Shown piece by piece: positions 6,108 to 33,065 of a DNA stretch of 34,454 bases. The position numbers were made by a program, and so were the translations under genes. Source of the DNA: Pseudomonadota bacterium (GTDB lineage Bacteria > Pseudomonadota > Gammaproteobacteria > Burkholderiales > Burkholderiaceae_C); the NCBI GenBank assembly GCA_021841865.1, contig JAKCDM010000026.1:1-34454 (forward strand). Direction: 5' to 3'. The stretch's first letter is position 1. Every line of letters begins with the position of its first letter. The notes beneath the pieces are model-generated. The model had not been told where the DNA came from and ran no database searches. It saw only the letters and a list, made by a program, of their open reading frames with translations.

Positions 6108-6115
6108 GATCCCGC

Positions 6116-8465: not shown

Positions 8466-8500
8466 GGCCTGGGAGTCAGCGACATGGGGTTGCAGGCATA

Positions 8501-8514: not shown

Positions 8515-8602
8515 CAGCATATGTCATCTGCCGACGTGCGTGGCCTAATCATTTTCGGCAATGGCGCCGGGCCCATCGGCGCGAACAGCTTTGCGGATTG
8601 CG

Positions 8603-10159: not shown

Positions 10160-12495
10160 ACCGGCGACTGAGCGCACACAGCGCAGTGGGCCTGCCCACG
10201 CCACACGAATCGGCGCAGCTGCACGTGGCCGGCACGGCCGACTACACCGACGACCTGCCGCAACTCGAGGGCACGCTGCACGCCGCGCTGGGCCTGTCGC
10301 CACTGGCCCACGGGCGCCTGCTGGACATCGATCTGCAACGCCTGCGCGAACAGCCCGGGGTGGTGGCCGTGTTCAGCGCCGCCGACATCGCCGGGCACAA
10401 CGACTGCGGGCCGGTGCTGCACGACGACCCGGTGCTGGCCGATGGCACCTTGCGCTACGTCGGCCAGCCGGTGTTCCTGGTGGTCGCCGAGCAGCGCGAG
10501 CAGGCGCGTCGCGCCGCGGCGCTGGCGCGCGAGGTGATACGCGCCGAGCCGCTGCCGGCGGTGCTGGACGCGCGCCACGCGCATGAACTCGGCCAGTACG
10601 TGCTCGACCCCATGCACCTGCTGCGCGAGAGCTCCCCCGGCGCGCTGGCGCGCGCGCTGGAGTCGGCGCCGCACCGCCTGCGCGGCAGCTGGTCCGTGGG
10701 CGGCCAGGAACAGTTCTACCTGGAAGGGCAGATCGCCTGCGCGCAGCCGCAGGCCGACGGCGCGATGCGCGTGCTGTGCTCCACGCAGCATCCCAGCGAG
10801 ATGCAGCATGTGGTGGCTGCGCTGCTGGGCCGCCCGCTGCACGACGTGCTGGTGGAGTGCCGGCGCATGGGCGGGGGATTCGGCGGCAAGGAATCCCAGT
10901 CGGCGCTGTTCGCGTGCTGCGCGGCGCTCGCCGCCGCGCGCCTGCAGCGCGCCGTGAAGCTGCGCGTCGACCGCGACGACGACATGCTGATCACCGGGCG
11001 GCGCCACGGTTTCGACTACGACTGGGACGTGGCGTTCGACGCCGGCGGGCGCATCCTCGGCTGCGAGGTCACGCTGATCGCCAACGCCGGGCACTCGGCC
11101 GACCTGTCGGGCGCGGTGATGACCCGCGCGCTGTGCCACCTGGACAACGCCTACCACCTGGCCGAAGTGGCCATGCACGGCTACTGCGCGCGCACCAACA
11201 CCCAGAGCAACACCGCGTTCCGCGGCTTCGGCGGACCGCAGGGCGCTCTGGTGATGGAGTACATGCTCGACAGCATCGCACGCCACCTCGGGCTGGACGC
11301 GCTGCAGGTACGGAAGGCCAATTTCTACGACCCGACGCGGGTGCAGACCACGCCGTACGGCCAGCCGGTGCGTGACAACGTGATCGGCGATCTGGTGAGC
11401 CAACTGGTGCACGATGCCGACTACGCGTCGCGCAGGGCCGAGGTCGCGAAATTCAACCGCGGCAACCCGGTGCTCAAGAAGGGCCTCGCGCTCACCCCGG
11501 TGAAATTCGGCATTTCCTTCAACGTTCCGCATTTCAACCAGGCGGGCGCTCTGGTGCACGTCTATACCGACGGCAGCGTGCTGGTCAACCACGGCGGCAC
11601 CGAGATGGGCCAGGGCCTGAACACCAAGGTGGCGCAAGTCGTGGCCCATGAACTCGGGCTGGATATCACCCGCGTGCGCTGCACAGCCACCGACACGTCG
11701 AAGGTGGCCAACACCTCGGCCACCGCGGCATCCACCGGTGCGGACCTCAACGGCATGGCGGCGCAGGACGCGGCCTCGCGCATCCGCGCACGCCTGGCGG
11801 AGCTGGCGGCCGGCCGCTTCGGCTGCGCTCCCGGGGATGTGCTGTTCGCCGGCGGTTGCGTGCAGGCCGGGGATGCCCGGATGGACTTCGCCGACCTCGT
11901 CGGCATCGCCTACCGCGAGCGCGTGCAGCTGTGGAGCGAGGGCTTCTACACCACGCCCGGGCTGCACTGGGACCCGAAGGCGCTGCGCGGCAACCCTTTC
12001 TACTACTTTGCCTACGGTGCCGCGCTCAGCGAGGTGCTGCTCGATACCCTGACCGGCGAGTGGCGCCTGCTACGCGCCGACCTGCTGCACGATGCCGGGC
12101 AGTCGCTGAACCCGGCCATCGACATCGGCCAGGTCGAGGGAGCGTTCATCCAGGGCATGGGCTGGCTGACCATCGAAAAACTGGTGTGGCACCCGAAGAC
12201 CGGCGCGCTGCTCACGCACGCGCCGAGCACCTACAAGATCCCCACCGCCAACGACTGCCCGCCGGTGCTGCGCACAGCCCTGTTCGACCGCGCGAACCCG
12301 CAGCCGACCATCCACCGCTCGAAGGCGGTCGGCGAGCCGCCGCTGCTGTTGCCCTTCTCTGTGCTGCTGGCGCTGCGCGATGCCGTGTCGGCCGTGGGCG
12401 AGCACCGGGTGCAGCCCGAGCTGCTGGCGCCGGCCACGCCCGAGGCACTGCTCGACGCAGTCGACGGCGTGCGGCGCGAGCTGGGACAGGCGTGA
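10156..12495 (+). CDS. xdhB: Xanthine dehydrogenase large (molybdopterin) subunit
   Basis: A 779-residue subunit with the molybdopterin active site that hydroxylates hypoxanthine to xanthine and xanthine to urate. Family motifs seen in order: GQEQFYLEGQ (the conserved Gln near Mo), MGGGFGGKE, FRGFGGPQG (the substrate Arg region), GGTEMGQGLNTK, and near the C-terminus KAVGEPPLLL with the catalytic Glu at residue 727. All expected active-site elements are present and the length is normal for bacterial XdhB. The start overlaps the xdhA stop (ATGA) and the stop overlaps a GTG that can start xdhC, so xdhABC is a translationally coupled operon. Electron transfer goes through XdhA. Confidence 0.95.
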   Translation: MNRRLSAHSAVGLPTPHESAQLHVAGTADYTDDLPQLEGTLHAALGLSPLAHGRLLDIDLQRLREQPGVVAVFSAADIAGHNDCGPVLHDDPVLADGTLRYVGQPVFLVVAEQREQARRAAALAREVIRAEPLPAVLDARHAHELGQYVLDPMHLLRESSPGALARALESAPHRLRGSWSVGGQEQFYLEGQIACAQPQADGAMRVLCSTQHPSEMQHVVAALLGRPLHDVLVECRRMGGGFGGKESQSALFACCAALAAARLQRAVKLRVDRDDDMLITGRRHGFDYDWDVAFDAGGRILGCEVTLIANAGHSADLSGAVMTRALCHLDNAYHLAEVAMHGYCARTNTQSNTAFRGFGGPQGALVMEYMLDSIARHLGLDALQVRKANFYDPTRVQTTPYGQPVRDNVIGDLVSQLVHDADYASRRAEVAKFNRGNPVLKKGLALTPVKFGISFNVPHFNQAGALVHVYTDGSVLVNHGGTEMGQGLNTKVAQVVAHELGLDITRVRCTATDTSKVANTSATAASTGADLNGMAAQDAASRIRARLAELAAGRFGCAPGDVLFAGGCVQAGDARMDFADLVGIAYRERVQLWSEGFYTTPGLHWDPKALRGNPFYYFAYGAALSEVLLDTLTGEWRLLRADLLHDAGQSLNPAIDIGQVEGAFIQGMGWLTIEKLVWHPKTGALLTHAPSTYKIPTANDCPPVLRTALFDRANPQPTIHRSKAVGEPPLLLPFSVLLALRDAVSAVGEHRVQPELLAPATPEALLDAVDGVRRELGQA

Positions 12496-13283
12496 GCGAC
12501 ATGGCCCACGCGCCGCCATGCTCCGTGGAGGTGCGCATCGCCGAGGTGCGCGGCTCGGCACCGCGTGAAACCGGCGCCTGCATGCTGGTAGGGCCCGACT
12601 TCGAGCGCGGCTCCATCGGCGGCGGACACCTGGAGTGGCACGCCCAGCGACGCGCCCGCGAGCTGCTTGCGCAGTGGTGCGCCGAGCCCGGCCCCGCCGT
12701 GCGCGAGACCCACGCGCTGGGCCCGTCTCTGGGCCAGTGCTGCGGCGGGGTCGTGACCCTGGAGTACGCAGCCTCGGCGCTGCGCGAGCTGCCACCGGCG
12801 GCGCCGCTGTTCCACCTGCAACTGCACGGCGCCGGCCACGTCGGCCGTGCGCTGGTACGCCTGCTGGCGACGCTGCCCTGCCAGGTCGACTGGGTCGACG
12901 AGCGCGACGAGGCCTTCGCCGGCGCCGGGCTCGGCGGCGGACCGGGGCCGGCGCGAATTCGCCAGCTGGCGGTCGACGAGCCGCAGGCCGAGGTCGAGCT
13001 GGCACCGGCGGGCGCCTTCGTGCTGGTCATGACCCACAGCCACGAGCTCGACGCACGCATCTGCGAGGCCGCGCTGCGCCGCCACGATCTCGGGCTGGTC
13101 GGGCTGATCGGCTCGCGCACCAAGCGCGCCCGCTTCGAGCACCGCTGGCTGGCCCGCGGTCTCGCCCCGCAGTCGCTGCAGCGACTGGTGTGCCCGATCG
13201 GCATTCCCGGCATCACCGGCAAGCAGCCCGAGGTGCTGGCGCTGGCGGTGGCCGCGCAGTTGCTGCAGCACGCCGGCTGCTGA
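12492..13283 (+). CDS. xdhC: XdhC, molybdenum cofactor maturation factor for xanthine dehydrogenase
   Basis: About 263 residues. The N-terminal XdhC/CoxI domain contains EVRGSAPRETGACMLV and GSIGGGHLEWHA; the middle has CCGGVVTLEY; a C-terminal Rossmann-like domain begins LQLHGAGHVGRALVRLL and ends GIPGITGKQPEVLALAVAAQLL. XdhC proteins bind Moco, promote its sulfuration and insert it into XdhB. The GTG at 12492 overlaps the xdhB stop as GTGA, which suits coupling; an ATG nine bases later (12501) is an equally possible start. As the only such factor in the window it might also serve the second Mo hydroxylase at 14990-17789, which has no XdhC gene beside it. Confidence 0.9.
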   Translation: MSDMAHAPPCSVEVRIAEVRGSAPRETGACMLVGPDFERGSIGGGHLEWHAQRRARELLAQWCAEPGPAVRETHALGPSLGQCCGGVVTLEYAASALRELPPAAPLFHLQLHGAGHVGRALVRLLATLPCQVDWVDERDEAFAGAGLGGGPGPARIRQLAVDEPQAEVELAPAGAFVLVMTHSHELDARICEAALRRHDLGLVGLIGSRTKRARFEHRWLARGLAPQSLQRLVCPIGIPGITGKQPEVLALAVAAQLLQHAGC

Positions 13284-13604: not shown

Positions 13605-14960
13605 ATGAGACATCCGCATCAAAGCGTCGACGAGATCCTGCCGGCGCGCAAGATGATCACCCTGGGCCTGCAGCACATGCTGGTGGCCTATGTCGGCGCC
13701 ATCGCCGTCCCGCTGATCGTTGCATCCGCGCTGAAGATGTCGCACCAGGACACCATCACGCTGATCAGCACAGCGCTGTTCTGTTCCGGCATCGCCACCC
13801 TGGTGCAGACCATCGGCGTATGGAAGTTCGGGGTCAAGCTGCCCATTCTCAACGGCGTGGCCTTCAGCAGCGTGGGACCGGTGATCGCCATCGGCACCAA
13901 CCCGCAGATCGGCTTCGTCGGAGTCTGCGGCTCGGTGATCGCTGCCGGGCTGGTCACCATCGTGCTGGCCCCCTACGTGGGCAAGCTGCGACGATTCTTC
14001 CCGCCAGTCGTCACAGGCTGCATCGTGCTGATCATCGGCCTGACCCTGTTTCCTGTCGCCTATCAGTGGCTGGGTGGCGGGCGTGGCAACGCGCAGTTCG
14101 GCAGCCCGGTCTATCTCGCGGTGGCGTTTTTCGTGACCGCCGTGATCCTGGGCATCAACCGCTACGCCACGGGACTCGTGCGTAACCTCTCGGTATTGAT
14201 CGGGCTGCTGTGCGGCGCGTTGGCAGGCGGCATGCTCGGCATGGCCGACTACAGCTCGGTCGCCAAGGCTCCATGGGTCGCAGTGCCGATGCCGTTCCAC
14301 TTCGGCATCCCCGTGTTCCGGGTGATCCCGATCCTGACCATGATCGTGGTCATGCTGGTGCAAATGGTCGAGTCGACGGGCCTGTTCATCGTCATCGGCG
14401 ACATCGCCAACAAGGAGATTCATGAGCAGGACGTGATCAACGGTCTGCGCGGAAACGGGCTGGCGAGCGCAATCGCCGGAATGTTCGCGGCCTTTCCCTT
14501 TATCGCCTTCATGGAGAACGTGGGCACCGTGATCCTTACCGGGGTGCGCAGCCGCTTCGTGGTCGCCGTCAGCGGCGTGCTGCTGTGCCTGGTCGCCCTG
14601 ATGCCCAAGATCGGGGCGGTGTTCGCGGCCACTGCGCCCGCCGCGCTGGGCGGGACAGGCATGGCCTTGTTCGGGGTCGTGGTCGCCGCCGGCATCAAGA
14701 CCCTGTCGCGCGTCGACTACACCAACGAAAACAACGTCTACGTCGTCGGGTTCACGCTGGTGCTGGCGGCAATCCCGATTTTCATGCCGTCCGTCTTCGG
14801 CCGCATGCCGACGTGGACCGCCCCCTTTCTGCAAAGCGGGGTCATCATCGCCAGCGTCGCCGCCGTGGCCCTGAACCTGTTCTTCAACGGCCTGCGCGAG
14901 GCTGTGCCCGAGACGCATGCACTGCGCGCCGAACTCGCCGATGCGTCGTGCGACGCCTGA
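13605..14960 (+). CDS. NCS2 nucleobase permease with UraA-like pocket residues
   Basis: A 451-residue membrane protein of the nucleobase-ascorbate (NCS2) family. The N-terminal half looks like the xanthine/urate branch ([37 protein letters not shown]). In helix 8 the conserved Glu is present (E256 in MVESTGLF). In the helix 9-10 region it reads RGNGLASA (N284) and FMENVGTV (E304, N305). In xanthine and urate carriers such as XanQ and UacT these positions are usually Asp and Gln, whereas Glu-Asn is what I recall for the uracil carrier UraA. The substrate may therefore be a non-standard imide-bearing heterocycle. GGAGGAG (13592-13598) sets the start; the frame is open upstream but that part is not membrane-like. 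It heads the plus arm of the catabolic module. Confidence 0.9.
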
Positions 14961-14989
14961 TCCACATGCCGAGACGGGGAGATACCGAC

Positions 14990-15448
14990 ATGCGCATGCA
15001 ACTTCGTGTAAACGGCTCGCTGCACAGCGTGGACGTGGCCGCGGACAAGCCCCTGTTGTGGGTACTGCGGGAGGACCTCGGCCTGACGGGCAGCAAGTAC
15101 GGCTGCGGTCGCGGCCTGTGCGGGGCCTGCACCGTGCACGTGGGCGCCGACGCGGTGCGCTCATGCCTGGTGCGCGCAGGCGACGTAGGCACGGCCGAGG
15201 TGACCACCATCGAGGGGTTGGGGCGCCACGGCCTGACGGCATTGCAGCAGGCCTGGATCGCCGAGGATGTCCCGCAATGCGGCTACTGCCAATCGGGGCA
15301 GATCATGAGCGCGGCCGCGCTGCTGCGCAGCCATCCCAGGCCCGACGAGCGCCAGATCGTCGACGCCATGTCGGGCAATCTGTGCCGCTGCGGCACCTAC
15401 GCCAGGATCCGCCGCGCCATCCGTCGCGCCGCCGGCGGCGGCGAATGA
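14990..15448 (+). CDS. 2Fe-2S subunit of an IorAB-like molybdenum hydroxylase
   Basis: A 152-residue ferredoxin-like subunit. The plant-type cluster is bound by Cys39, 44, 47 and 59 ([12 protein letters not shown] and RSC). The second cluster is bound by Cys97, 100, 132 and 134 ([10 protein letters not shown] and NLCRCGTY). Size and motifs match the small subunit of isoquinoline 1-oxidoreductase and similar two-subunit hydroxylases that lack FAD. GGGGAGA lies seven bases before the ATG at 14990. It has no signal peptide of its own, so if the partner subunit is exported by Tat it would travel as a complex with it. It lies 29 bases after the permease stop and 52 bases before the large subunit. 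Confidence 0.92.
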
Positions 15449-15500
15449 GCCGGCCGCCCGTACGCACGCATCCCTGAATCCCTTCTACAGGAGGCACACC

Positions 15501-17789
15501 ATGCCTGCTACGTCCCTGCGCGCGCCGCGCTCGTCGCGCCGTGATTTTCTTCGCCATGCCGCGGCCTGCGGTCCCTGCCTGATGATCGGCCTGACGCTGG
15601 CGCCGCGCGCCGGCGCCGCAGTCCTCGGGGCGCGTCCGGACAGCGCGCCCGCCCACTTGCCCGGCGAAGCAGACATGCCCGCCGCGCCTGACCTTGCCAA
15701 CGCCTGGCTGCTCATCGATCGCAACGGCCTGACCCAGCTCATCGTCAACAAGTACGACTCCGGAACGGCCATCCAGACATCCTTCGGCGCGCTGCTCGCC
15801 GACGAACTCGGGGTCGATCTGGACTCGGTTCGCATCATCGCGCCGCCGAATCCCTTCGACCCTGTGTACATGCAAAAGGACTGGGGCGAATTCTCGACGG
15901 GAGGCAGCACCAGCATCATGACTGAGTACCGCAACCTGCGCGAGGCGGCGGCGGCGGCGCGCACCCTGCTGGTCGAGAGCGCCGCGATGCGATGGCGCGT
16001 TCCCACGCAATCCTGCGACACCGCGCACGGCCATGTGGTACAGCTCGGCGGCTCGCGCAGGATTGGCTTCGGCGAACTGGTCGGGCAGGCAGCGCGCCTG
16101 CCAGCGCCGCGACAGGTACGGCTGCGCGCGCTGGAAGACCTGCCAAACGTCGGCAAGCTGCGCCACAAGCTCGGCGCAGAGTCCAAGTGCACCGGCGAAC
16201 GGCGCTACACCATCGATCTGCAGGTTCCCGCAATGCTGGTGGCCGGCATCGAGCGTGCGCCGGTGCTCAACGCACGCGTGAAATCCCTGGATGCTGCAGA
16301 GGCCTTGCGCGTGGCAGGCGTCCATGCCGTGCTGCGCGTTCCGGGGCGACCCGATCTCCTCGGCGGCAACCAGGAAGGAGTAGCGGTGATCGCGGACTCG
16401 TTCTGGTCCGTGCAGCAGGCCCGCCGCAAGTTGCGCGTGCAGTGGGAGGGAGGTGACGCAGGATTTGACAGCAGCCGTCTGCCGACCGAGCAACACGATA
16501 CCCTGCAGCGCTCACTGCGCGGCGACACCGCAGTCGAAGTGGTTCCCACCATCCGGCGCGGCAACCTCGCGGCATCGCTGGCGAGCTCGGCGCGTCAACT
16601 GCATGCCAGCTACGTCATGCCCTACAAGGCCGCCAATCCGATGGAGCCGCAGTGCGTGATCACGCAGGTTCGCGACGACGGCGTGCACTTCTGGGGGCCA
16701 CTGCAGGTGCCCAGCAATGCGCTGTTCGCAGCGGCCATGATCTGCGGCGAAAGCGATCCCGCGCGCGTGCATCTGCACGATGCCGACCTGATCGGCGGCG
16801 GCAGCTTCGGTTCCCGGGAATCCCGCTACTGGCTTCTCGAGGCGGTATGGCTGGCGCGGCAGACCGGGCGCGCGATCAAGCTGATCAACACTCGCGAGGA
16901 TGAGATGCGCGCCCTGTACTACCACGCGGCCAGCTACCACCACGTTGTCGGCGCGCTGGACGCCCGGGGCCGCCTGCGAGGCCTGCAAGTCCGCGCGGTG
17001 GTCCCGGCCTCTCCCGAACGCTGGCAGGCTGGCTACGACAAGCGACACCCGCCAATGGACTACAGCACGACCGAGGCGCTGTGCAGCTGGGACTTCGCCT
17101 ACACAGTGCCGGCGCTGGACGTAGCCTGGGTTCGACACGAAACCGCGCTGCCCACGGGCTGGTATCGAGCGGTGAGCTTCATTCCCAACGTGTTCGCCGT
17201 CGAGACCTTCATCGACGAGGTCGCCCAAGCCGCCGGAGCGGATCCGCATGCCTACCGCCGTGCGCTGATGCAAGGCAGGCCGCGGCATGTCGCGGTGCTT
17301 GACCAGGCCGTGCGTCGGGAGCGCGATGCCTTCCCGGGCGCCACGGAGGATGTCCTTGGCATCGCCACCAACCAGGCCTATGGCAGCTACTGCGCGGTGG
17401 TCGTTCGCCTGCGCGGCAGCGGCGGGGCCTGGCGCATCCGGCACGTGACCTGCGTGGCCGACTGCGGGCTCGCGGTGCTTCCGGGCAGCGTGCAGGAACA
17501 GTTGTACGGGGGCGTCATGTGGGGCCTGGGCCACGCACTGCACGATCGCGTCCAGGTCGTGGATGGAAGGGTTCGCGAGTCGAACTTCGACGACTACCCC
17601 GTGATGCGCATGTCGGAGATGCCCGAGGTGGACGTGCACATCGTGGACGGCGACACGCGGCACCCGGGAGGAGTCGGCGAACTGGCCGCGCCTTCCACGG
17701 TCGCCGCGCTGGGCAATGCGCTGTCGCGCGCTCTCGGGCGGCGTCTGCGGCAGACGCCCTTCGACGTGCCCGAACTGCTCGGCGCCTGA
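15501..17789 (+). CDS. Tat-exported molybdopterin subunit of an IorAB-like hydroxylase
   Basis: A 762-residue xanthine-oxidase-family molybdopterin subunit of the IorB type. The N-terminus carries a twin-arginine signal (SRRDFLR at residues 12-18, then a weakly hydrophobic stretch ending near RAGAAVLG), so the enzyme is probably periplasmic or membrane-attached. AGGAGG at 15489-15494 sets the start. Recognisable elements include the Moco-binding regions GGSTSIMTEYRNL and GGGSFGSRESRYW, and the C-terminal GGVGELAAPST with the catalytic Glu at residue 727. Members of this family hydroxylate N-heterocycles or aldehydes and pass electrons to a cytochrome. No cytochrome c or FAD subunit gene lies nearby, so the electron acceptor is missing from the locus. 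It is clearly distinct from XdhB of the same window. Confidence 0.9.
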   Translation: MPATSLRAPRSSRRDFLRHAAACGPCLMIGLTLAPRAGAAVLGARPDSAPAHLPGEADMPAAPDLANAWLLIDRNGLTQLIVNKYDSGTAIQTSFGALLADELGVDLDSVRIIAPPNPFDPVYMQKDWGEFSTGGSTSIMTEYRNLREAAAAARTLLVESAAMRWRVPTQSCDTAHGHVVQLGGSRRIGFGELVGQAARLPAPRQVRLRALEDLPNVGKLRHKLGAESKCTGERRYTIDLQVPAMLVAGIERAPVLNARVKSLDAAEALRVAGVHAVLRVPGRPDLLGGNQEGVAVIADSFWSVQQARRKLRVQWEGGDAGFDSSRLPTEQHDTLQRSLRGDTAVEVVPTIRRGNLAASLASSARQLHASYVMPYKAANPMEPQCVITQVRDDGVHFWGPLQVPSNALFAAAMICGESDPARVHLHDADLIGGGSFGSRESRYWLLEAVWLARQTGRAIKLINTREDEMRALYYHAASYHHVVGALDARGRLRGLQVRAVVPASPERWQAGYDKRHPPMDYSTTEALCSWDFAYTVPALDVAWVRHETALPTGWYRAVSFIPNVFAVETFIDEVAQAAGADPHAYRRALMQGRPRHVAVLDQAVRRERDAFPGATEDVLGIATNQAYGSYCAVVVRLRGSGGAWRIRHVTCVADCGLAVLPGSVQEQLYGGVMWGLGHALHDRVQVVDGRVRESNFDDYPVMRMSEMPEVDVHIVDGDTRHPGGVGELAAPSTVAALGNALSRALGRRLRQTPFDVPELLGA

Positions 17790-17794
17790 GCCCG

Positions 17795-17819
17795 CGCAGC
17801 TGCCGCCGTGGCAGCTGCG
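17795..17819 (+). terminator. Perfect 10-bp stem-loop between hydroxylase and porin genes
   Basis: CGCAGCTGCC, a five-base loop GCCGT, then GGCAGCTGCG form a perfect ten-base-pair stem, starting five bases after the stop of the molybdopterin subunit. No T-run follows (AACTTCCCC), so it may be a partial or Rho-assisted terminator, or an mRNA end-stabilising hairpin that sets a lower or separate level for the porin. Confidence 0.45.
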
Positions 17820-17962
17820 AACTTCCCCCATCGACAGCAATGTCCGCCGCGACGCGTCGCGCGGGCGAGCTGCCACCTGCGCGGCGGATGCGACGAGTGG
17901 CCGTCGCGAGCTCGGCCGGAACGGCCTGTCATGCCAAGCACCACAACCCAGGAGACATGTTC

Positions 17963-19027
17963 ATGCAAACCAGGAATCTTCTCGCCCTGGCGATCGGCGC
18001 CGTCAGCCTGAGCGGACCTTCCGCGCAGGCTGCCACCGCCACGCTGTACGGGACCATCGATCTCGCCGTGGAGCACTTCGACAACGGAGCGGGAGCTCGC
18101 ACCCTTCTCGGCAACGGCGTGCTCAACCCCAGCGTGATCGGTTTTCGGGGCCAGGAGTCCCTGCAGGGAGGAACGCAGGCGTTCTATCAGCTCGAAACCT
18201 CGCTGTGCGCCAACGGCAGCGGTGCCGGCGCGACGACCTTGTCACAGGAGTTCTGCGGCCCGGGCTTCATGGGCCGCACGAGCGTGCTCGGCCTGCGGGG
18301 CAACTGGGGCTCGCTGACCGCCGGCCGCATGTTCACCCTCAGCAACAACGATTTCTATGCCATCGACCCGCTGCACAGCGATTCGATCAGCCCGTTCGGC
18401 AACAACAACGTTGCGGGAATCGGCGAGGAAGTGTGGGCCAGCCAGGCCATCGAGTACCGCTCGCCGAGCTGGCGCGGCTGGAATGTCGCCGGCCTGTACC
18501 AGTTCGGCGGCGGGCTCGGCCTGCAGCGCACCACCGGCGGCTACAACCTCCACCTCGGGTACGCGCGGGGACCGTGGTACGCCGGCACCGACTACGAAGT
18601 CCAGTACACGCAGACCGGCGCGGCCGCAGTGCGCCACGGGATGGCCGTGCTGCGCTATGACTTCGGTGTGGCGCGCCTCGCGGGCTACGTGGCGCGCAAC
18701 CGCCCCGACCCCTCCAGCGGCAACCCGCGCCTCGATGCCTACGCGCTGACGGCCAGCATCCCCCGCGGGGCCTGGACCTTGATCGGTGAGATCGCCGTGC
18801 AGCACGACCGCAGCTCCTCGCGCGCCGACACCCGGCAGTACGACCTCGGGGCCATCTACGCGCTTTCACCCAGCACCAGGCTGTACGGTGTGCTCGCGCG
18901 CAGCAGCCATTACGCGACCTTCTCCAACATCGTCGACGCATTCGGCAACAACAGCGCCCCCACCCTGTCGGGCGAAACCGGGGCGGCGTCCAGCGCCCTG
19001 GCGCTGGGTCTCGAAGTGAATTTCTAG
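17963..19027 (+). CDS. Gram-negative porin
   Basis: A 354-residue outer-membrane beta-barrel of the betaproteobacterial general porin type. It has a signal peptide (NLLALAIGAVSLSGPSAQA, cleaved before ATATLYG), the first strand ATLYGTIDLAVEHF, the typical SVIGFRGQESLQGG and SVLGLRGNWGSLTAGR strands, and a terminal phenylalanine (LGLEVNF) required for assembly. The ATG at 17963 is preferred to the one at 17957 because AGGAGA (17950-17955) is seven bases away from the former and only one from the latter. A pair of cysteines (SLCANG and EFCGPGF) may form a loop disulfide. Its place between catabolic genes suggests it admits the substrate of the module. Confidence 0.9.
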   Translation: MQTRNLLALAIGAVSLSGPSAQAATATLYGTIDLAVEHFDNGAGARTLLGNGVLNPSVIGFRGQESLQGGTQAFYQLETSLCANGSGAGATTLSQEFCGPGFMGRTSVLGLRGNWGSLTAGRMFTLSNNDFYAIDPLHSDSISPFGNNNVAGIGEEVWASQAIEYRSPSWRGWNVAGLYQFGGGLGLQRTTGGYNLHLGYARGPWYAGTDYEVQYTQTGAAAVRHGMAVLRYDFGVARLAGYVARNRPDPSSGNPRLDAYALTASIPRGAWTLIGEIAVQHDRSSSRADTRQYDLGAIYALSPSTRLYGVLARSSHYATFSNIVDAFGNNSAPTLSGETGAASSALALGLEVNF

Positions 19028-19112
19028 TGCCCTGTCCCGCGGTCGCGCGAGCGAAGGGCGAGCGATCGACGGGACGAGACGCGAGGGCTGCAGGCCGGGC
19101 ACGCGGGGCGTC

Positions 19113-19141
19113 TTGCCGCGTTCCCACCCCTGCCCTATGCT
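19113..19141 (+). promoter_or_regulatory. Candidate sigma-70 promoter of the LysR gene
   Basis: TTGCCG (19113-19118) and TATGCT (19136-19141) are separated by exactly 17 bases, a fair match to the -35 and -10 elements. Transcription would begin near 19148, leaving a leader of about 80-100 bases before the LysR start. Confidence 0.4.
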
Positions 19142-19225
19142 GGTTTGCGCGCCGTGCCGGGCACAGGGGCCTCGCGGCGTCTTTTCCAGCTCGCCGCCAC
19201 GCGCGGCCTTTCTCGAGGACCTGGC

Positions 19226-20173
19226 TTGGACCTGCACCGCCTCAACGTCGACATGCGCCTGCTGCGCTATTTCAGCGTGCTGGCGGAAGAGCTGCATTTC
19301 GGCCGCGCCGCCGCGCGCCTGCATATCTCGCAACCTCCGCTGAGCCAGCAGATCAAGCTGCTCGAGCGTGACCTGCAGACCCAACTGTTCGTGCGAACCC
19401 ACCACCACGTGGAACTCACGTCGGCGGGTCGAATGCTCAAGGAGCAGGTGCGCTACGTGTTCGAGCAGTTCGACCGTGCGCTGACCCTGACCCGCCAGGC
19501 CGGGCGCGGCGAGGTCGGGCGCCTCGAAGTGGGCATGATCAGCTCGGTGATGATCGGCTTGATCACGCGCTCCCTCCAGATGTTCCAGGAGCGCTATCCG
19601 GGGGTGGACTGGCGCCTGCACGAACTCACCCCGATGGCGCAGATCGAGGCCCTGGAGGCCATGCGTATCGACGTCTGCTTCTTCCGCCTCGGCCATCAGG
19701 GAGCCGGCTTGCGCAACGAGTTGCTGATCTCGGAACCGGTGGCAGTGGCGCTTCCCGAACGTCACCGCCTGACGCGCTATGACTGTGTCGAACTCTGCGA
19801 GCTCGCGCAAGAACCCTTCGTGTCCTTCGAGTTGCAGCAATCGACCCTGGCCAAGGTGCTGCATCAGATCTGCATGGAGGCCGGCTTCGTGCCCCGCATC
19901 GTGCAGCAGGTCACCCAGGTGCAGACCCTGCTGTGCCTGGTACGGGGAGGATTCGGCGTGGCCTTGCTACCGGTGAGCGCCGAGTACACCAAGCCGCCGG
20001 GCGTGGTGTTCAGGCCCCTGAAGAACCAGGTACAGGAAGTTCCGCTGTACGCGATCTACCGCGACGAGGACGTCTCCCCCACGCTGGAACTGTTTCTACA
20101 GACGGTGCGCGAACTCGCGCGTCGCCACGCCCAGGTGGGGCCGGCGGAATTCGACGGACTCATCGCAGGCTGA
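19226..20173 (+). CDS. LysR-family regulator of the catabolic module
   Basis: A 315-residue LysR regulator of the CatM/BenM-like subgroup. The DNA-binding domain reads LRYFSVLAEELHFGRAAARL, then HISQPPLSQQIKLLERDL. An effector domain follows, with MISSVMIGLITRSLQMFQERYP and a C-terminal GGFGVALLPVS segment. Regulators of this subgroup usually respond to aromatic acids or ring-cleavage intermediates and activate catabolic operons. The TTG at 19226 is chosen because GAGG lies eight bases upstream; the ATG at 19253 gives a 306-residue protein with a more typical N-terminus but no ribosome site. It ends 26 bases before the convergent end of the six-gene operon, and is the best candidate to control both arms of the module. 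Confidence 0.88.
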   Translation: MDLHRLNVDMRLLRYFSVLAEELHFGRAAARLHISQPPLSQQIKLLERDLQTQLFVRTHHHVELTSAGRMLKEQVRYVFEQFDRALTLTRQAGRGEVGRLEVGMISSVMIGLITRSLQMFQERYPGVDWRLHELTPMAQIEALEAMRIDVCFFRLGHQGAGLRNELLISEPVAVALPERHRLTRYDCVELCELAQEPFVSFELQQSTLAKVLHQICMEAGFVPRIVQQVTQVQTLLCLVRGGFGVALLPVSAEYTKPPGVVFRPLKNQVQEVPLYAIYRDEDVSPTLELFLQTVRELARRHAQVGPAEFDGLIAG

Positions 20174-20199
20174 AGCCGCCGTGCGCGGCGGCCCCGCAG

Positions 20200-21597
20200 T
20201 CAGTCGGCCAGCAGGGCACGTACCCCGGCCGCAGCCTGCGCACGCAGGCTGCGCAGGTCGAGTCCGGGAATGCGTCCGTCGTCGACCACCACGCGCCCCT
20301 GCACCACGCTGTAGCGCACGCGCGTCGGCTCGCCGGCCGTCACGGGGGCCGAGGCCGGGTCGTGGAAACCCCAGAAGCGCGGGTGGTCGAGGTCATACAC
20401 CACCAGGTCGGCACACATACCCGGCTCGATCAGGCCCACGGCCCCCAGGCCGAGGACCTGCGCTCCGCCGCGCGTACCCCAGTGCACGATATCCTCGACG
20501 GTCGTCGCCTGCGCGCCCTGGTTCGCGCGATGCACCAGCCATGCCATGTGCGCCTCGGCGAGCATGCTGCCGGATTCATTCGATGCCACGCCGTCGACGC
20601 CCAGGGAGATCGGCACTCCGGCGGCGGCCAGTTGCGGCACCGGAGCGATGCCACTGCCCAGGCGTGCGTTGCTGACGGGACAGTGCGCGATGCCGGTGCC
20701 GCTTTGCGCCAGCAGGCGGATTTCCTCCTCCTGCAGGTGCACCAGGTGGGCGAACCAGACGTCCTGGCCCAGCCAGTCGTGGCGCGCGACGAATTCCACG
20801 GGAAGACAGTCGTGGTGCTCGCGACACCAGCTCACGTAGCCCATGCTCTCGGACAAGTGGCTGTGCAGCCGCACGCCCAGGCTGCGAGCGTGGGCGGCGA
20901 GTTCGCTCAGCAGCGACGCCGGAAGCGAATAGGTCGGAGTGGTCGGCGCCAGCACCACGCGGCGCATGGCATCTTCGCCGGCCTCGTGGTAGCTGCGGCA
21001 CAGACGCTCGATGTCCATGAGCATCTCGGCCTGCGACTCGGGAGCCAGCGCCGTGCGCGAAAAACCCGGATGGCTGCCCGCCGCTTCGATCGCTCCGCCT
21101 CTGCACAGCACGAAACGCATGCCGAATTCCTGGGCCACGTCGAACAGCACGTCGCCACTGTCCTTGGTGCCGCCGCCGTGGTAGAGGTAGTGGTGGTCGG
21201 CGCAGGTGGTGGCCCCCGAAAGCAGCAATTCGGCCATGCCCAGGCGTGCCGCCACCCGCACGAGATCGGGGGTGAACCTGGCCAGTCGCGGATACGGCAC
21301 GCTGGCCAGCCACTGCGCCAGCGGCTGGTTGATTCCCGACGGGACGGCCTTGAGCAGATTCTGGAACAGGTGGTGATGGGTGTTGACCCAGCCGGGAGCA
21401 ACCACGCAGCCGCGGGCATCGAGTACCCGCTCGGCGGGCAGGGCCCGCAACATCGGGGCGACCTCGAGGATTCGTCCGCCCTGGACCCGGATGTCCAGGC
21501 TCCCTGCCCGGGCAGCCGCACCGGGACGGCCGCTGAGCACGGCGTCTGCGCCCCGAATCAGCAGGCTGGGCACGCCTTCCTGCGGCTTGGCGTTCAT
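20200..21597 (-). CDS. AtzB / 8-oxoguanine deaminase-like amidohydrolase
   Basis: A 465-residue zinc amidohydrolase of the COG0402 deaminase group. The HxH metal motif is in NTHHHLF (His74-76). Then come [38 protein letters not shown] and [11 protein letters not shown], which supply the remaining metal and substrate residues. The DHHY and [12 protein letters not shown] segments are what I associate with 8-oxoguanine deaminase and with hydroxyatrazine ethylaminohydrolase (AtzB). It should remove an amino group from an amino-substituted N-heteroaromatic ring. The ATG at 21597 overlaps the stop of the CobW gene (ATGA), with GGAG upstream; a GTG three codons earlier is less likely. It is the last gene of the six-gene minus operon. 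Confidence 0.88.
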
Positions 21598-22607
21598 CGC
21601 AGGCACTCCAGCAGGCCCGTGCGCAGCGCGACCGAGTCGAGCCCGCGACCGATGAACACCAGCTTGCTGCGCCGCGCATCGTCACCCCAGGGTCGCGACA
21701 CCTTCCAGTCGACCATGCGGTGCACGCACTGCAGAACGTGGCGACGCGGATCGCCGTCGACAGCGACGATGCCCTTGATACGATACAGGCAGTCGCCCTG
21801 GCGCTCGAGCAGCTCGCCGATCCAGGACAGCAGCGCGTCGGCGTCGAACTCGGCTCGCGCGTCGACGCACACCGCCGCCACCTCGGGGTCGTGATGGTGC
21901 TCGTGCTCGTACCCGGCGTGCTCCAGCAGCGGCTCCAGCGGAGCCGTCGCGCTGTAGGCGCCGATGCCCAGGATCTGGTCCAGATCGACCTGGGCATGGC
22001 AGGAGTGCACGATCGGCGCGCTGGCGTTGAGGGCACGCAGGCGCTGCTCGAGTAGGCGCAGTTCCTGCTCGTCGGCGAGGTCGATCTTGTTGACCACGAT
22101 GCGGTCGGCGCAGGTGATCTGCGAGGCGGCCTGGTTGTCGGATCCGTCGAGCACCATCTCGTCGAGATGTGTGCCGATGTGGCGCGCGTCGACCAGCGTG
22201 ATGATGCCGTCGAGACTGACCCGCTCGGAGATCGGATCCTGGATGAAAAAGGTCTGCGCCACGGGATAAGGGTCGGCCAGCCCGCTGGTCTCGATCAGGA
22301 TGTGCTCGACCGGATCGGGACGCTGCGTGAGTTCGTGCAACACGCGCACCAGATCCTCGCGCACCGCGGCCACGCAGCACACGCATCCGTTGACCATTTC
22401 GTAGATCTCTTCCGTGGATTCGAGCACCAGGTCGCCGTCCACGCCAACCTCGCCGAACTCGTTCTCGATCACGGCAATGCGCCGTCCGTGAAACGTGGTC
22501 AGGATGTGGTTGAGCAGCGTGGTCTTGCCGGCACCGAGAAAGCCCGTCAGGATGGTGACGGGAATCTTGCGCGCTGCCTCGGGCATTGCTTGAGTCGATC
22601 GGGTCAT
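21594..22607 (-). CDS. CobW/ZNG1-family metallochaperone GTPase
   Basis: A 337-residue COG0523 GTPase. The P-loop is GFLGAGKTT (residues 22-30). The metal-binding CxCC motif is C75-V-C77-C78 inside [26 protein letters not shown] and VVNKIDL are the other G-protein signatures. A His-rich segment (HEHHHD, about residues 230-235) sits before the C-terminal CobW_C domain. Family members deliver zinc or cobalt to client enzymes. It overlaps its upstream gene (UbiX-like) and its downstream gene (deaminase-like) by ATGA, so it is made in step with three metal-dependent amidohydrolase-fold proteins of the operon, the likely clients. No zinc-uptake genes are nearby, which argues against a simple zinc-starvation role. 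Confidence 0.92.
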
Positions 22608-23248
22608 GGGTTTTCTCCGCCAGGCTGCGCGGTCGCGGCATTGCACTTCGCGCAGCGGATACCGGCCACCTCCCCCCAGCGGAAAGCCAGGTCGGTGGGC
22701 AGGTCGAAAAGGTCCAGCACGCGGCCGAGCGTGTGGTCGATCATCGCGTCGAGATCGCGCGGGCGCGCGTAGAAGGCGGGCACTGGAGGCGCGACGATCC
22801 CGCCCATCTCGGTCACGCCGAGCATGTTGCGCAGGTGCGTGGCGGTGAGCGGCGTCTCGCGTGCCAGCAGCACGAGTCGGCGGCGCTCCTTCAGCGTCAC
22901 GTCCGCCGCGCGAGTCAGCAGATTGGACGACATGCCCTGGGCGATTTCGGCCAGGCTGCGCATCGAGCACGGCGCGACGACCATGCCGAGGGTGCGAAAG
23001 GATCCGCTGGCGATCGCCGCCGCGAGGTCGTCGGCCCGGTACCAGGTATGCGCCAACTGCTGCACGTCTGCCACCTTCAGCGAGCTTTCATGCAACAGGG
23101 TCAATTGCGCGCCGCGACTCATCACCACGTGGGATTGCACGCCGAGTGCTCGCAGGTGTTGCAGCAGGCGCACCCCGTAGATGGCCCCCGAGGCACCACT
23201 GATGCCGACGACCAGGCGCGGCGCAAGCTCATTCTCACGTGGCTTCAT
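22604..23248 (-). CDS. UbiX-like flavin prenyltransferase
   Basis: A 214-residue enzyme that attaches a dimethylallyl group to FMN to make prenylated FMN, the cofactor of UbiD enzymes. [11 protein letters not shown] (residues 15-25) is the FMN-binding motif. [20 protein letters not shown] and the basic segment [16 protein letters not shown], then [10 protein letters not shown], are family hallmarks. It is slightly longer than typical UbiX (about 190-200 residues) because of a C-terminal tail that contains a CxxC (CAKC). GGGAG precedes the ATG at 23248. It lies 29 bases after the UbiD gene and overlaps cobW by ATGA. As part of this operon it probably serves the adjacent decarboxylase rather than ubiquinone synthesis. 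Confidence 0.92.
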
Positions 23249-23277
23249 GGCCGGACTCCCGCGGGACGATGGCGTGC

Positions 23278-24669
23278 TCACGGCTCGCGCCCGAAGCGCG
23301 CCAGCACGGCTTGCGCACGCGCCAGCGCGGCCTCGCCGATGCGTGCGCGCACGCCGTCGAACTGCGAACCGCGCGTGGCGTCGACTCCCATGCGAGAAGT
23401 CGTTCCGTCGGCTGACGAGGAAGGGTCGAGCGCGCTGCCCGGCAGGCCATCGACTACGAAAAGGTCCCGATGCGGCTGAAAGTGCGTCGCCATGGCCCAC
23501 AACACCTGGTCGTCGCGGGTGATGTCGACATCGGCGTCGACGGCCACCGCCGTCTTCACGTAGGGGTCCCACCCAAGAAGCGCCAGCAGCACCTGGCGTG
23601 CCTCGCCGTCACGCCTGGCTTCCAGCGACACGTAGCAGTGGAAATGCGTGCCCGACGTCGGGTAATGCAGCGCCTTGACGGCCGGAAAGCGCGCGCGCAG
23701 CTTCTCCGTCATCTCGGCCTCGCGAGGCAGGCGGGCCAGGTTGAGATGCTCGGCGCTGGCGCCTCCGGCGATGTCGACCAGCCAGGCGTCGCGACGTTGC
23801 AGGATGGCGTCGACGTGCAACACGTTGTTGGTCGAGCGCGACGACGAGTAGCCGGTGAACTCGCCGAATGGCCCTTCGTCCGCGCGCGCGGACGCGTCTA
23901 TGGTTCCCTCCAGCACGAATTCGGCGTGCGCCGGAACCAGGATTCCGTGGCGCGGCGTGGCCACCACGTCCAGCGCTTGCCCGAGCAATCCGCCGGCGAT
24001 GGCACGCTCGTCGCAGCCGTAGGGCACACGCGCGGAGGCGGCGAGGTTGACCATGGGGTGCGTGCCTATGACCATGGCCACCGGCAGTGCCTCGCCACGC
24101 CCGGCCGCCTGCTGCAGCATTCGCCACAGATCCCCGCGCGAGTGCAGGCTGGTCGCGAGCTCGTTGCGGGAGTGCAGCATCGAGCGGTGGTAGCTCAGGT
24201 TGGCCACCCCGGTCGTACGATCCTCGGCGATGATCAACGCGTTGGTCACGTAGGGGCCGCGGTCGGTCTCGAAGTGCCTCAGCATGGGCAGCTCGTGCAA
24301 GTCGACCGCATCCCCCTCGACCACCTGCTCGAGCACCGGTCCGTGTTCTACGACACGCGGCGGGATGGGCCGATTGGCACGCTGCTGATAGGCCTGATGC
24401 AGGCCGGCTGGCTCCACGCCGAACAGACGTGCCAGGCGCGTGCGCGAGGCGAATACGTTGCTGGCCACCGGAACCCGGCAGCCCCGCACGTTCTCGCACA
24501 GCAGCAGGGGATGCTGGTCGCGCGCCGCGAGCTCGTGGATCAGCGCGCTGACGTCCTGGTCGATGGACAGCTCCTGCCGCAGGGTCAGCACGTCGTCGCC
24601 GTGGGCCTCGCGATAGGCCTGGGCAAAGGCGTGAAAGCACTGCGTTCGAGAGTAGGCTGGTAGCTGCAT
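23278..24669 (-). CDS. UbiD-family prFMN-dependent decarboxylase
   Basis: A 463-residue member of the UbiD family, which reversibly decarboxylates unsaturated or (hetero)aromatic acids with prenylated FMN. The signature EGPFGEFTGY spans residues 265-274 and supplies the paired catalytic and cofactor glutamates (E265 and E270). NLSYHRSMLHSR (about 157-168) carries the conserved Arg region, and HFETDRGPYVTNAL and VIGTHPMVNLAA are further family segments. GGAGG lies five bases before the ATG. The substrate cannot be read directly. Family relatives act on furan, pyrrole, indole, vanillate and phthalate-type acids. Its neighbours here (NCS2 permease, Mo hydroxylase, deaminase) suggest a carboxylated N-heterocycle. 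Confidence 0.92.
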   Translation of the reverse strand: MQLPAYSRTQCFHAFAQAYREAHGDDVLTLRQELSIDQDVSALIHELAARDQHPLLLCENVRGCRVPVASNVFASRTRLARLFGVEPAGLHQAYQQRANRPIPPRVVEHGPVLEQVVEGDAVDLHELPMLRHFETDRGPYVTNALIIAEDRTTGVANLSYHRSMLHSRNELATSLHSRGDLWRMLQQAAGRGEALPVAMVIGTHPMVNLAASARVPYGCDERAIAGGLLGQALDVVATPRHGILVPAHAEFVLEGTIDASARADEGPFGEFTGYSSSRSTNNVLHVDAILQRRDAWLVDIAGGASAEHLNLARLPREAEMTEKLRARFPAVKALHYPTSGTHFHCYVSLEARRDGEARQVLLALLGWDPYVKTAVAVDADVDITRDDQVLWAMATHFQPHRDLFVVDGLPGSALDPSSSADGTTSRMGVDATRGSQFDGVRARIGEAALARAQAVLARFGREP

Positions 24670-24696
24670 GGTGCCTCCGGCGACTTGGCGTTGCGC

Positions 24697-25605
24697 TCAG
24701 CGCACGTAGGTGGCGTTCAAGCGCAGCTTCGCCTCGGCGAGGTCCCTGGGCGCGGGCGTGGGCTCGATGCCCACGAGGCGGGCTATGTTGTTGCCCAGGT
24801 AATCCTCGAGTCCCTCTTCGTCCAGGTTCATGCCCTGGGGCTCGGGCCTGCAAAGCACCTCGAGCTCGCGCAGCCACATGCCGGGTTCGTTCGGCGGCGA
24901 GTCGGTGCCGAATACGATCTTGTGTCGCGGCAGCTGGCGCGCGAACTCGACGATGCGTGACTGGAAGCACCACCCCGACTCGCAATAGACATTGGGCGTA
25001 TCCATGGCCATCCAGAATGCCTCGAATGAGTAGTTGCCTCCGGTCTGGATCCCGAAGTGGCCGATGATGAAGTTGACCATCGGGAACTCGCGGATGATCG
25101 GATAGAACATTGTCGGGATGGTGTACGGCCCGTCCCCGGTGTGGATCAGCACCACCACGTTGTACTTGGCGCACACCTTCATCGCCGGGCGCAGCCAGTC
25201 CAGCGCGCGGTCGGGGCGGTAGCCGTGCATGTTGGCGTGCAGCTTGAGCATCTTGAAGCCGTATTCGCGCACGTGGAACTCGAGTTCCGCGGCACCGTTC
25301 TCCGGACCCCAGCGCGGGTTGTAGGTGAAATTGCCGATGAAGCGATCGGGGTACTTCTGCGTCAACTCGGCGACATAGGCCATGTAGTCGCGAATGCCGT
25401 CGCGCCCGCGGCGGTTGCCGTCGCGGTAACCGGTGTTGCCCGGAGGCGGCTGGATGAAGCCCATGTCGATGCGGCGTGGCTTGCCGTTGATCATGTAGGG
25501 TCCGTCCATGAGCTTGAGCATGCGCTCGCCGGTGAACGGCTCGCCGGTGTGGCGCCAGGCCTCGTCGACCAGGTTGGTCGGATGCAGGTGGGTGTCGATG
25601 ATCAT
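24697..25605 (-). CDS. ACMSD-like amidohydrolase (intact metal site)
   Basis: A 302-residue TIM-barrel protein of the amidohydrolase_2 (ACMSD-related) family, whose members are metal-dependent decarboxylases or hydrolases/hydratases. The metal site looks complete: H6-L-H8 in IIDTHLHPT, K121-L-H123 in MLKLHANMH, H155 in LIHTGDGP, H183 in IIGHFG and D235 in VFGTDSPPNEP. GGAG lies eight bases before the ATG at 25605. It lies 65 bases downstream of a close paralogue (25671-26543), and more than half of aligned residues are identical by eye. A frame open to 25944 is a shadow; the ATG at the conserved IIDTHLH is the family start. The precise reaction is unknown. Confidence 0.88.
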   Translation of the reverse strand: MIIDTHLHPTNLVDEAWRHTGEPFTGERMLKLMDGPYMINGKPRRIDMGFIQPPPGNTGYRDGNRRGRDGIRDYMAYVAELTQKYPDRFIGNFTYNPRWGPENGAAELEFHVREYGFKMLKLHANMHGYRPDRALDWLRPAMKVCAKYNVVVLIHTGDGPYTIPTMFYPIIREFPMVNFIIGHFGIQTGGNYSFEAFWMAMDTPNVYCESGWCFQSRIVEFARQLPRHKIVFGTDSPPNEPGMWLRELEVLCRPEPQGMNLDEEGLEDYLGNNIARLVGIEPTPAPRDLAEAKLRLNATYVR

Positions 25606-25670
25606 GCGTGAACTCCAGGAGCCCGGCGCCATGCGCCGCGGGCGGTTTGGGGGCGGGCCGAGACGTTGAC

Positions 25671-26543
25671 TCAGGCCGCGGGTGGCGGCGAGGGCTGCAG
25701 GCCCAGCATGCGCGCCAGGTTGTTGCCGAGGTAGTCCTCGAGCACCTGCTCGGACAGGTTCATGCCCTGCGGCGGCTCGTGGCACAGCACCTCGAGAAGG
25801 CGCAACCACATCCCCGGCTCGTTCGGCGGCGTGTCCGATCCGAACAGGATCTTGTGGGTCGGCAGGACCTTGGCGAACTCCACGATGCGCGACTGCAGGC
25901 ACCAGCCGGACTCGCAGTACACGTTCGGCAGTTCCAGGGCCCACTGGAATGGTTCGAAACAGTAGACCCCGCCCGTCTGCACGCCGAAATGCGCCATGAT
26001 GAAGTTCACTTCAGGAAACTCTTTGATCATCGGCACCCACTCGGTGGGAATGCTGTACGGGCCGTCTCCGGTATGGAGTTTCACCGGCACATTTAATTCA
26101 GCGCATTTTCGAAAAGCCGGACGTACCCAATCCAGGGCGCGATCCGGTCGATACGCGTGCATATTTGCCTGCATCTGCACCATCTTGAATCCATGCTCGA
26201 CGACGTAGCGCTCGATCGCCTCGACGCCGTTGTCCACGCCGCAGCGCGGGTTGTAGACGAAGCAACCGAGCAGGCGATCCGGATGGCGACGCACGGCGTC
26301 CAGCGTGTACGCCATATAGGAGTCGATCGATTCACGTCCCGACAGCGAGCCATCGGTCCAGGTGTAGATGGTGTTGCCCTGCGGCGGTTGCACGAACGCC
26401 TTGTCGATTCGCCGCGGCTTGCCGTTGATCCAGTAGGGGCCGTCCATCATGGCAATCAGCCTTTCCACCGAGAAGGCGGGGCCGTCGTGTCGCCACGCCA
26501 GATCGACCTTGTCGGTCGGATAACAGCTCAGATCGATGATCAT
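25671..26543 (-). CDS. ACMSD-like amidohydrolase paralogue lacking the HxH motif
   Basis: A 290-residue paralogue of the preceding protein in the same operon. The N-terminal metal motif IIDTHLHPT is replaced by IIDLSCYPT, so the two histidines become S6 and Y8. The KLHANMH segment becomes QMQANMH, so Lys and His become Q123 and Q125. The other ligand positions remain: H157 in KLHTGDGP, H185 in MAHFG, D237 in FGSDTPPNEP. The fold-defining segments (DGPY.INGKPRRID, YRPDRALDW, NVYCESGWC, YLGNN.AR) are nearly unchanged, so the protein is under constraint rather than decaying. It may be a regulatory or structural partner of its neighbour, or use another mechanism. Strong ribosome site GGAGAGAGG precedes the ATG at 26543; it is the first gene of the operon. 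Confidence 0.88.
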   Translation of the reverse strand: MIIDLSCYPTDKVDLAWRHDGPAFSVERLIAMMDGPYWINGKPRRIDKAFVQPPQGNTIYTWTDGSLSGRESIDSYMAYTLDAVRRHPDRLLGCFVYNPRCGVDNGVEAIERYVVEHGFKMVQMQANMHAYRPDRALDWVRPAFRKCAELNVPVKLHTGDGPYSIPTEWVPMIKEFPEVNFIMAHFGVQTGGVYCFEPFQWALELPNVYCESGWCLQSRIVEFAKVLPTHKILFGSDTPPNEPGMWLRLLEVLCHEPPQGMNLSEQVLEDYLGNNLARMLGLQPSPPPAA

Positions 26544-28008: not shown

Positions 28009-28027
28009 CCAGCGCGGCCCGCACATC

Positions 28028-33064: not shown

Positions 33065-33065
<1 letters not shown>

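Follow-up and report, generated by a model that had tools for sequence, protein, structure and literature searches.

A bacterial route from pteridines to purines was reportedly worked out by McNutt in 1963-64 in Alcaligenes faecalis, in which isoxanthopterin is said to pass through 7-hydroxylumazine (7-oxolumazine), tetraoxypteridine and xanthine-8-carboxylate to xanthine. The ring contraction of this route is catalysed by tetrahydroxypteridine cycloisomerase (EC 5.5.1.3), and we know of no gene that has been assigned either to the enzyme or to the pathway. We have analyzed a stretch of 34,454 nucleotides from a Pseudomonadota bacterium of the Burkholderiaceae_C (assembly GCA_021841865.1, contig JAKCDM010000026.1; hereafter the window), which is one whole contig (C35 in our numbering) of a 3.45 Mb assembly in 212 contigs. 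Its positions 13605-26543 hold a gene cluster, called here the module, that codes for a permease, a two-subunit molybdenum (Mo) hydroxylase, a deaminase, a UbiD-type decarboxylase with its UbiX, a CobW protein and two related amidohydrolases (A1 and A2). Each conserved enzyme class of this module can be matched to one step of the McNutt route. Judging from gene content and conservation, we think there is about an even chance that the module is a catabolic island converting pterins to xanthine, which would feed ordinary purine breakdown.

The evidence that these genes work together comes from their shared distribution. In a collection of named genomes, 385 stretches matched the search patterns and 317 of them encoded relatives; the best 80 were kept, a sample biased to close relatives of the window module. 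They belonged mostly to Pseudomonas, Burkholderia, Paraburkholderia, Caballeronia and Ralstonia, and also to Crenobacter, Pandoraea, Trinickia and Paracoccus. A1, A2, UbiD and UbiX were present in all 80 loci, always in the order A2-A1-ubiD-ubiX. The CobW protein, the NCS2 permease and a LysR regulator were found in 76 loci each, the PRK12393-family deaminase in 72 and the exported-type Mo hydroxylase (IorA plus IorB) in 70. The earlier note on this DNA, made from the letters of the window, had named independent scattering of the homologues as what would speak against a single pathway for an N-heterocycle; the core was instead clustered and ordered in every locus, and this shared clustering strongly supports the proposal of one pathway. 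The porin that the same note had counted in fared differently, with no match in any of the 80 loci at E 1e-15, and we have removed it from the module.

The commonest arrangement (33 of the 80 loci) was lysR-iorB-iorA diverging from lysR2-A2-A1-ubiD-ubiX-cobW-ncs2-deaminase, and 19 further loci varied from it by the place of lysR and by an extra gene. Eight loci were examined for further shared genes. Beyond the core, the recurrent extras were a second LysR gene (69 loci), nearest to GcvA and below the GcvA cut-off, and an Asp/Glu-racemase-like gene (Amdase/EutA-like) in 24 loci, where it follows either the deaminase (22 loci) or CobW (2 loci). An example of the latter gene lies at positions 17147-17878 of locus L030. 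So few further shared genes would be anticipated for a route whose product is passed on to enzymes encoded at another place. Clusters of the module genes also occur in other genera and in gamma- and alphaproteobacteria. In wider samples, the window's own genome left aside, A1 was detected in 3 of 299 genomes of the order, 5 of 298 of the family and none of 368 in the class sample. All the order and family carriers of A1 have A2 too (in G861 the pair is split over two contig ends). Plasmid records matching A1 numbered 91, in 182 places, and are not independent since 63 of them are from Sinorhizobium.

From these families we infer the following order of events. The starting compound would be pterin or isoxanthopterin, with leucopterin and xanthopterin as further candidates that fit. 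The Mo hydroxylase would hydroxylate the pyrazine ring, in the periplasm in the case of the IorAB type, and the NCS2 permease would import the hydroxylated pterin. The PRK12393 deaminase would then strip the 2-amino group (isoxanthopterin to 7-oxolumazine) and a second ring hydroxylation would give 2,4,6,7-tetraoxypteridine. Using the metal of A1, the A1/A2 pair may open the pyrazine lactam, which would be reclosed as an imidazole to give xanthine-8-carboxylate, a net isomerisation corresponding to EC 5.5.1.3. Such a contraction amounts to lactam hydrolysis plus cyclodehydration and would for that reason suit a metal-dependent amidohydrolase. UbiD, with the prenylated flavin mononucleotide (prFMN) made by UbiX, would convert xanthine-8-carboxylate to xanthine, and the xanthine dehydrogenase XdhABC would oxidise this to urate. 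CobW would deliver metal to the amidohydrolases.

A larger claim, to which we give a little less than an even chance, is that these are the first genes for the bacterial contraction of a pteridine to a purine. EC 5.5.1.3 would then be an Amidohydro_2 heteromer with HxH in one subunit and none in the other, UbiD a xanthine-8-carboxylate decarboxylase with a new type of prFMN substrate, and the island would be present in three proteobacterial classes (beta, gamma and alpha), using either of two Mo hydroxylases and either of two deaminases. The earlier note had stated that no described pathway has this set of functions, which is doubtful in view of the McNutt biochemistry, where just these steps are reportedly used; what stands is that our searches found no genes for it. 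Among open-licence PMC papers we found no gene for the ring-contraction step, no title about bacterial genes for this route among those listed for pteridine terms, no occurrence of the name tetrahydroxypteridine cycloisomerase, and nothing on this gene cluster under UbiD, UbiX or amidohydrolase terms; excerpts of PMC2848018 and PMC2651895 contain nothing on it either. Tetrahydroxypteridine and xanthine-8-carboxylate appear as alternative assignments of one mass in an excerpt of PMC5941619, and McNutt 1963 is cited for folate deamination in A. faecalis in an excerpt of PMC9513972.

The substrate class is indicated mainly by the deaminase. Its best match in the PDB is 2paj (window residues 11-467), which scores 750 bits in NF009059 (cut-off 543) and so falls in the same equivalog family. 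We take 2paj to be the enzyme that Hall et al. (2010) reported as isoxanthopterin deaminase. According to an excerpt of PMC5270733, both isoxanthopterin and pterin-6-carboxylate are deaminated by enzymes of this type. An identity as 8-oxoguanine deaminase was rejected: the window protein falls under that cut-off (438 against 532 bits), as 2paj does, while standing above the PRK12393 one. Within the window's family, PRK12393 was above cut-off in all six module carriers (window included) compared to 12 of 293 non-carriers (Fisher p 2e-8), the carrier and PRK12393 samples being equally large and identical in their genomes as far as these are listed. Five PRK12393 places outside the module, four of them in non-carriers and the fifth a second copy in the genome of the window, showed no module core gene. 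That second copy (contig C194, 27793-29196; locus L169, 9778-11190) lies, without the module, beside a deaminase-like frame and a BMP-type protein. The permease meets the cut-off for PbuX xanthine permeases (Table 1). Because of the deaminase family, its association with carriers and the permease cut-off, a pterin is most likely the substrate of the module. The earlier note had expected a carboxylated N-heterocycle such as a pteridine, purine or pyrimidine carboxylate; the 2paj family and the permease favour the pteridine, and the carboxylate would be an internal intermediate and not the compound taken up.

A1 and A2 show 62-69% identity in the reference set and form an isolated family, the next relatives scoring less than 60 bits compared to more than 600 for the family (150 genomes). 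The motif DTHLHP was found in A1 at 94 of 94 places and D-x-S-C-Y, that is, no HxH, in A2 at the same 94 (one place per genome or record, window included, with 63 distinct sequences of A1 and 85 of A2). A1 matches Pfam PF04909 with 160 bits against a cut-off of 26 and has the full HxH, H, H, D set; A2 passes the PF04909 cut-off but lacks the HxH on strand 1 that a metal enzyme of this kind would have. The residues H155, H183 and D235 (A1 numbering) are invariant in both proteins, for A1 in 43 rows. Structure models of A1 (predicted local distance difference test, pLDDT, 75; predicted template modelling score, pTM, 0.82) and A2 (pLDDT 76, pTM 0.83) both show the Amidohydro_2 barrel and do not distinguish a hydrolase from a decarboxylase. 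These motifs suggest a heteromer in which one subunit is without HxH. By analogy, A2 might reasonably be expected to complete or to shape the site of A1, since the title of 4ifk, an ACMSD among the fold neighbours of A1, states that an arginine from the neighbouring subunit is needed. The earlier note called the pair ACMSD-like and gave it hydrolysis or a second decarboxylation; the step that we favour for it is ring contraction and not decarboxylation.

UbiD carries the N, rift and C domains of its family (PF20695, PF01977 and PF20696). R162, E265 and E270 are invariant in the four orthologues aligned, with the R-E-E spacing of Fdc1, compared by spacing only; the catalytic residues of Fdc1 are R173-E277-E282. 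The best PDB matches are 6h6v/6h6x (222 bits), presumably the furan-2,5-dicarboxylate decarboxylase HmfF, followed by 7p9q (155 bits), which we take to be the indole-3-carboxylate decarboxylase AnInD; both are distant. Solved relatives for five-membered heteroaromatic acids are in keeping with an imidazole acid as the predicted substrate. The window's genome has a second UbiD, 40% identical (contig C115, 6242-7420). In the case of the Mo hydroxylase, a twin-arginine-like motif RRxF[LVIM] was found near the start of IorB in 71 of 72 IorB-carrying rows, and because of this motif the IorAB type is probably exported. An identity as xanthine dehydrogenase (XDH) was discarded for it, every XDH model being far below cut-off (14945-15448 and 15501-17789). 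The CobW translation contains a CxCC motif and the His-rich stretch EHEHHHD, as in COG0523 metal chaperones.

A second branch of the module has a different hydroxylase. In Sinorhizobium meliloti pSymB, Ensifer and Cupriavidus a three-subunit XDH-like enzyme replaces IorAB, and this branch is also found in three genomes of the order and in loci of the window's family. The S. meliloti 1021 module lies on pSymB at about 139-153 kb, and the rhizobial core set is rearranged in order. In Ensifer and S. meliloti a cytosine-deaminase-like protein and BMP-type ABC transport genes lie nearby. Beside the Ensifer cluster there is a class II aldolase (PRK06486; locus L113, 5363-6151), perhaps for side chains of substituted pterins. 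Of the five other loci from the family, four have a PRK12393 deaminase (50-52% identity) near the module; that of G905, the fifth, shares a separate contig with UbiX, CobW, the hydroxylase and part of UbiD. In Paracoccus, a cytosine-deaminase-like COG0402 protein occupies the PRK12393 slot of locus L050 and matches in L111 as two overlapping pieces in different frames; the three-subunit hydroxylase was not found in either of these two loci. A UbiD tree of 92 rows had two sides. The side of 80 rows includes the window (support 100/99), whose row has a long branch and an unsure exact place, and the other has nine XDH-type rows together with three IorAB-bearing rows of Caballeronia and Paraburkholderia (L034, L070 and L085). 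The functions of Mo hydroxylase and deaminase are thus mostly kept while the genes for them change, a pattern difficult to account for if either function were dispensable.

Directly upstream of the module the window has a purine locus (4740-13283) that includes guanine deaminase and XdhABC, which speaks for xanthine as the product. We searched carrier genomes for XdhB and found it above cut-off in 35 of the 36 tested, out of 89 available; the exception was G905, whose assembly is 79% complete and gave a partial match. In the order it was above cut-off in 24 of 150 genomes, two of them carriers (Fisher p 2e-21, ignoring kinship). In the window's genome the genes for TIGR03212, presumably the allantoinase PuuE, and OHCU decarboxylase are side by side.

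Several of our results weigh against the conversion of pterins to xanthine. XdhABC adjoins the module in the window only and in none of the 80 related loci. In the family to which the window belongs, XdhB was above cut-off in 123 of 150 genomes, and the order and family controls scored 6 candidates per genome compared to 21 in the carrier test. With such a family background kinship explains much, so the presence of XdhB is weak evidence for a xanthine product, and we have downgraded its co-occurrence from a proof of that product. A recognised deaminase or hydroxylase is absent from 16 of the 80 loci; nine are truncated by a contig end on the expected side, and seven are incomplete with the expected stretch present, the hydroxylase being unrecognised in L027, L040, L050, L052 and L095 (in the last there is no IorAB even at E 1e-3) and the deaminase in L034 and L085. 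The twin-arginine count depends on the pattern, falling to 53 of 70 with a stricter one, and the 12 non-carriers in the family sample have PRK12393 without the module. Furthermore, the 50 fold neighbours listed for A1 are mostly decarboxylases (LigW, those of 2,6- and 2,3-dihydroxybenzoate, ACMSD and that of isoorotate), and a hydrolase or isomerase would not be the first suggestion of its modelled fold.

The fold of A1 bears on an exchange of roles, in which A1/A2 would decarboxylate xanthine-8-carboxylate like isoorotate decarboxylase, whose substrate is a uracil carboxylate, and UbiD would serve a different step or take an acid that arises earlier. The non-oxidative decarboxylases among the fold neighbours would agree with this, but no enzyme of the conserved set would be left for ring contraction, and with HxH lacking from A2 at all 94 places the pair is not simply two decarboxylases; we hold this to be quite unlikely. 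Somewhat better placed, though still unlikely, is a route from pterin-6-carboxylate, a folate fragment, where the deaminase would give lumazine-6-carboxylate, UbiD would decarboxylate it, the Mo hydroxylase would oxidise lumazine and A1/A2 would hydrolyse the ring. It draws on the activity of 2paj-type enzymes towards pterin-6-carboxylate as well (PMC5270733, excerpt) and on lumazine-6-carboxylic acid being named as a possible intermediate of bacterial folate breakdown (PMC9513972, excerpt). However, an extra decarboxylation would be needed if ring contraction followed, and no widely shared gene for degrading an opened pyrazine was seen in the eight loci examined. The best solved relatives of UbiD also act on five-membered rings.

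That last resemblance, to AnInD in particular, would suit a purine-like carboxylate such as 7-carboxy-7-deazaguanine, degraded by deamination, UbiD acting on the pyrrole acid, C8 hydroxylation and lactam opening by A1/A2, and the 2-amino-4-oxo ring would fit both deaminase and permease. We consider it improbable: the substrates reported for the deaminase family in the excerpt of PMC5270733 are pteridines, and the product would have no need of xanthine dehydrogenase. As for unrelated genes brought together by chance, the GC content of the segment (0.672, compared to 0.710 in the remainder of the window) may mark it as foreign, but co-occurrence refutes this idea, the core order being kept in all 80 loci of Pseudomonas, Burkholderiaceae, Neisseriaceae and Paracoccus and the set recurring rearranged in rhizobia, and we give it practically no weight.

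The open frames, Pfam and NCBIfam agree with the genes, coordinates, convergence point and overlaps described before for the module (Table 1), to which we add a LysR regulator; A1 and A2 have no NCBIfam match. The plus and minus arms do converge at 20173/20200, and their stop codons are 26 bases apart. From 26543 downwards the minus arm forms a tight row of six genes: A2, A1, UbiD, UbiX, CobW and deaminase. CobW and UbiX overlap by 4 bases, deaminase and CobW by 4 counted from an inner ATG (13 from the GTG start, three codons further out), and the remaining gaps are 29, 27 and 65 bases. The module was probably acquired by the window's genome, given its lower GC content and the lack of an A1 match in the three same-genus genomes of the family sample.

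Table 1. Genes of the module and of the adjoining purine locus in the window, with the matches on which each assignment is based.
Feature	Position	Strand	Match
NCS2 permease, xanthine-permease subfamily	13605..14960	+	TIGR03173 448 bits, cut-off 414
[2Fe-2S] subunit of two-subunit Mo hydroxylase (IorA-like)	14990..15448	+	Pfam Fer2, Fer2_2
Mo-binding subunit (IorB-like), twin-arginine-like motif SRRDFL	15501..17789	+	Pfam MoCoBD_1/2
Porin, probably outside the module	17957..19027	+	PF13609
LysR-family regulator	19253..20173	+	Pfam
PRK12393-family deaminase (AtzB-like), predicted isoxanthopterin deaminase	20200..21606	-	NF009059 735 bits, cut-off 543
CobW/COG0523 GTPase, likely metallochaperone	21594..22607	-	Pfam cobW, CobW_C
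UbiX flavin prenyltransferase	22604..23248	-	NF004685 260 bits, cut-off 188
UbiD prFMN decarboxylase, predicted xanthine-8-carboxylate decarboxylase	23278..24669	-	TIGR00148 303 bits, cut-off 245
Amidohydro_2 A1, full metal motif set, predicted ring-contracting enzyme	24697..25605	-	PF04909
Amidohydro_2 A2, without HxH, predicted partner without full metal site	25671..26543	-	PF04909
Guanine deaminase (purine locus, not core)	4740..6170	-	TIGR02967 473 bits, cut-off 375
NCS2-type permease (purine locus)	6116..7414	-	PF00860
LysR regulator (purine locus)	7551..8576	-	Pfam HTH_1, LysR_substrate
XdhA, xanthine dehydrogenase small subunit	8561..10159	+	Pfam Fer2_2, FAD_binding_5, CO_deh_flav_C
XdhB, xanthine dehydrogenase large subunit	10075..12495	+	TIGR02965 1184 bits, cut-off 849.5; Pfam
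XdhC, Mo-cofactor insertion factor	12501..13283	+	Pfam XdhC_C, XdhC_CoxI

Elsewhere in the window, positions 26536-29945 code for HlyD, an FtsX/MacB-like permease and an ABC ATPase. At its beginning this gene group overlaps the start of A2, which is on the other strand; it is likely an export operon unrelated to the module. A sigma-54 activator with a Fis-type helix-turn-helix (HTH) is found at 30987-33065 and a PAS-GGDEF-EAL protein near the contig edge at 71-2971, followed at 2979-3494 by a frame of 171 aa that has the HTH part of a LysR protein but nothing more of it and may be a truncated gene.

If the pterin-to-xanthine route is correct, genes would be assigned to a pathway and to an enzyme activity for which no sequence is known to have become available since the 1960s, and pterins from insect pigments, folate and cofactors would re-enter purine metabolism. 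A purine carboxylate would join the substrates of UbiD enzymes, and A1 and A2 would be a clear example of amidohydrolases that form an obligate pair, one of them having lost its metal motif. Sinorhizobium meliloti 1021 and other well-studied strains have such gene sets, which would also gain a testable function. Insect pteridines are treated in an excerpt of PMC11121863.

Among known systems, the McNutt pathway is like the module in that deamination, ring hydroxylation, ring contraction, decarboxylation and xanthine oxidation are each matched, and it differs in being known to us as biochemistry only. Single enzymes have their own counterparts. For the deaminase this is 2paj, its best PDB match and fellow member of NF009059. 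The sequences closest to UbiD among solved ones, HmfF and AnInD, are yet distant. The ACMSD/LigW/LigJ branch of PF04909 shares the barrel fold of A1 and A2, and A1 keeps its canonical metal motif set, but the pair is isolated in sequence and A2 is without HxH. The Arad3529-type pterin deaminase of folate degradation in Variovorax sp. F1 removes the pterin 2-amino group, as predicted for the deaminase of the module; unlike the module it acts on folate and pteroate, and the excerpt of the paper describing it has no mention of UbiD (PMC9513972).

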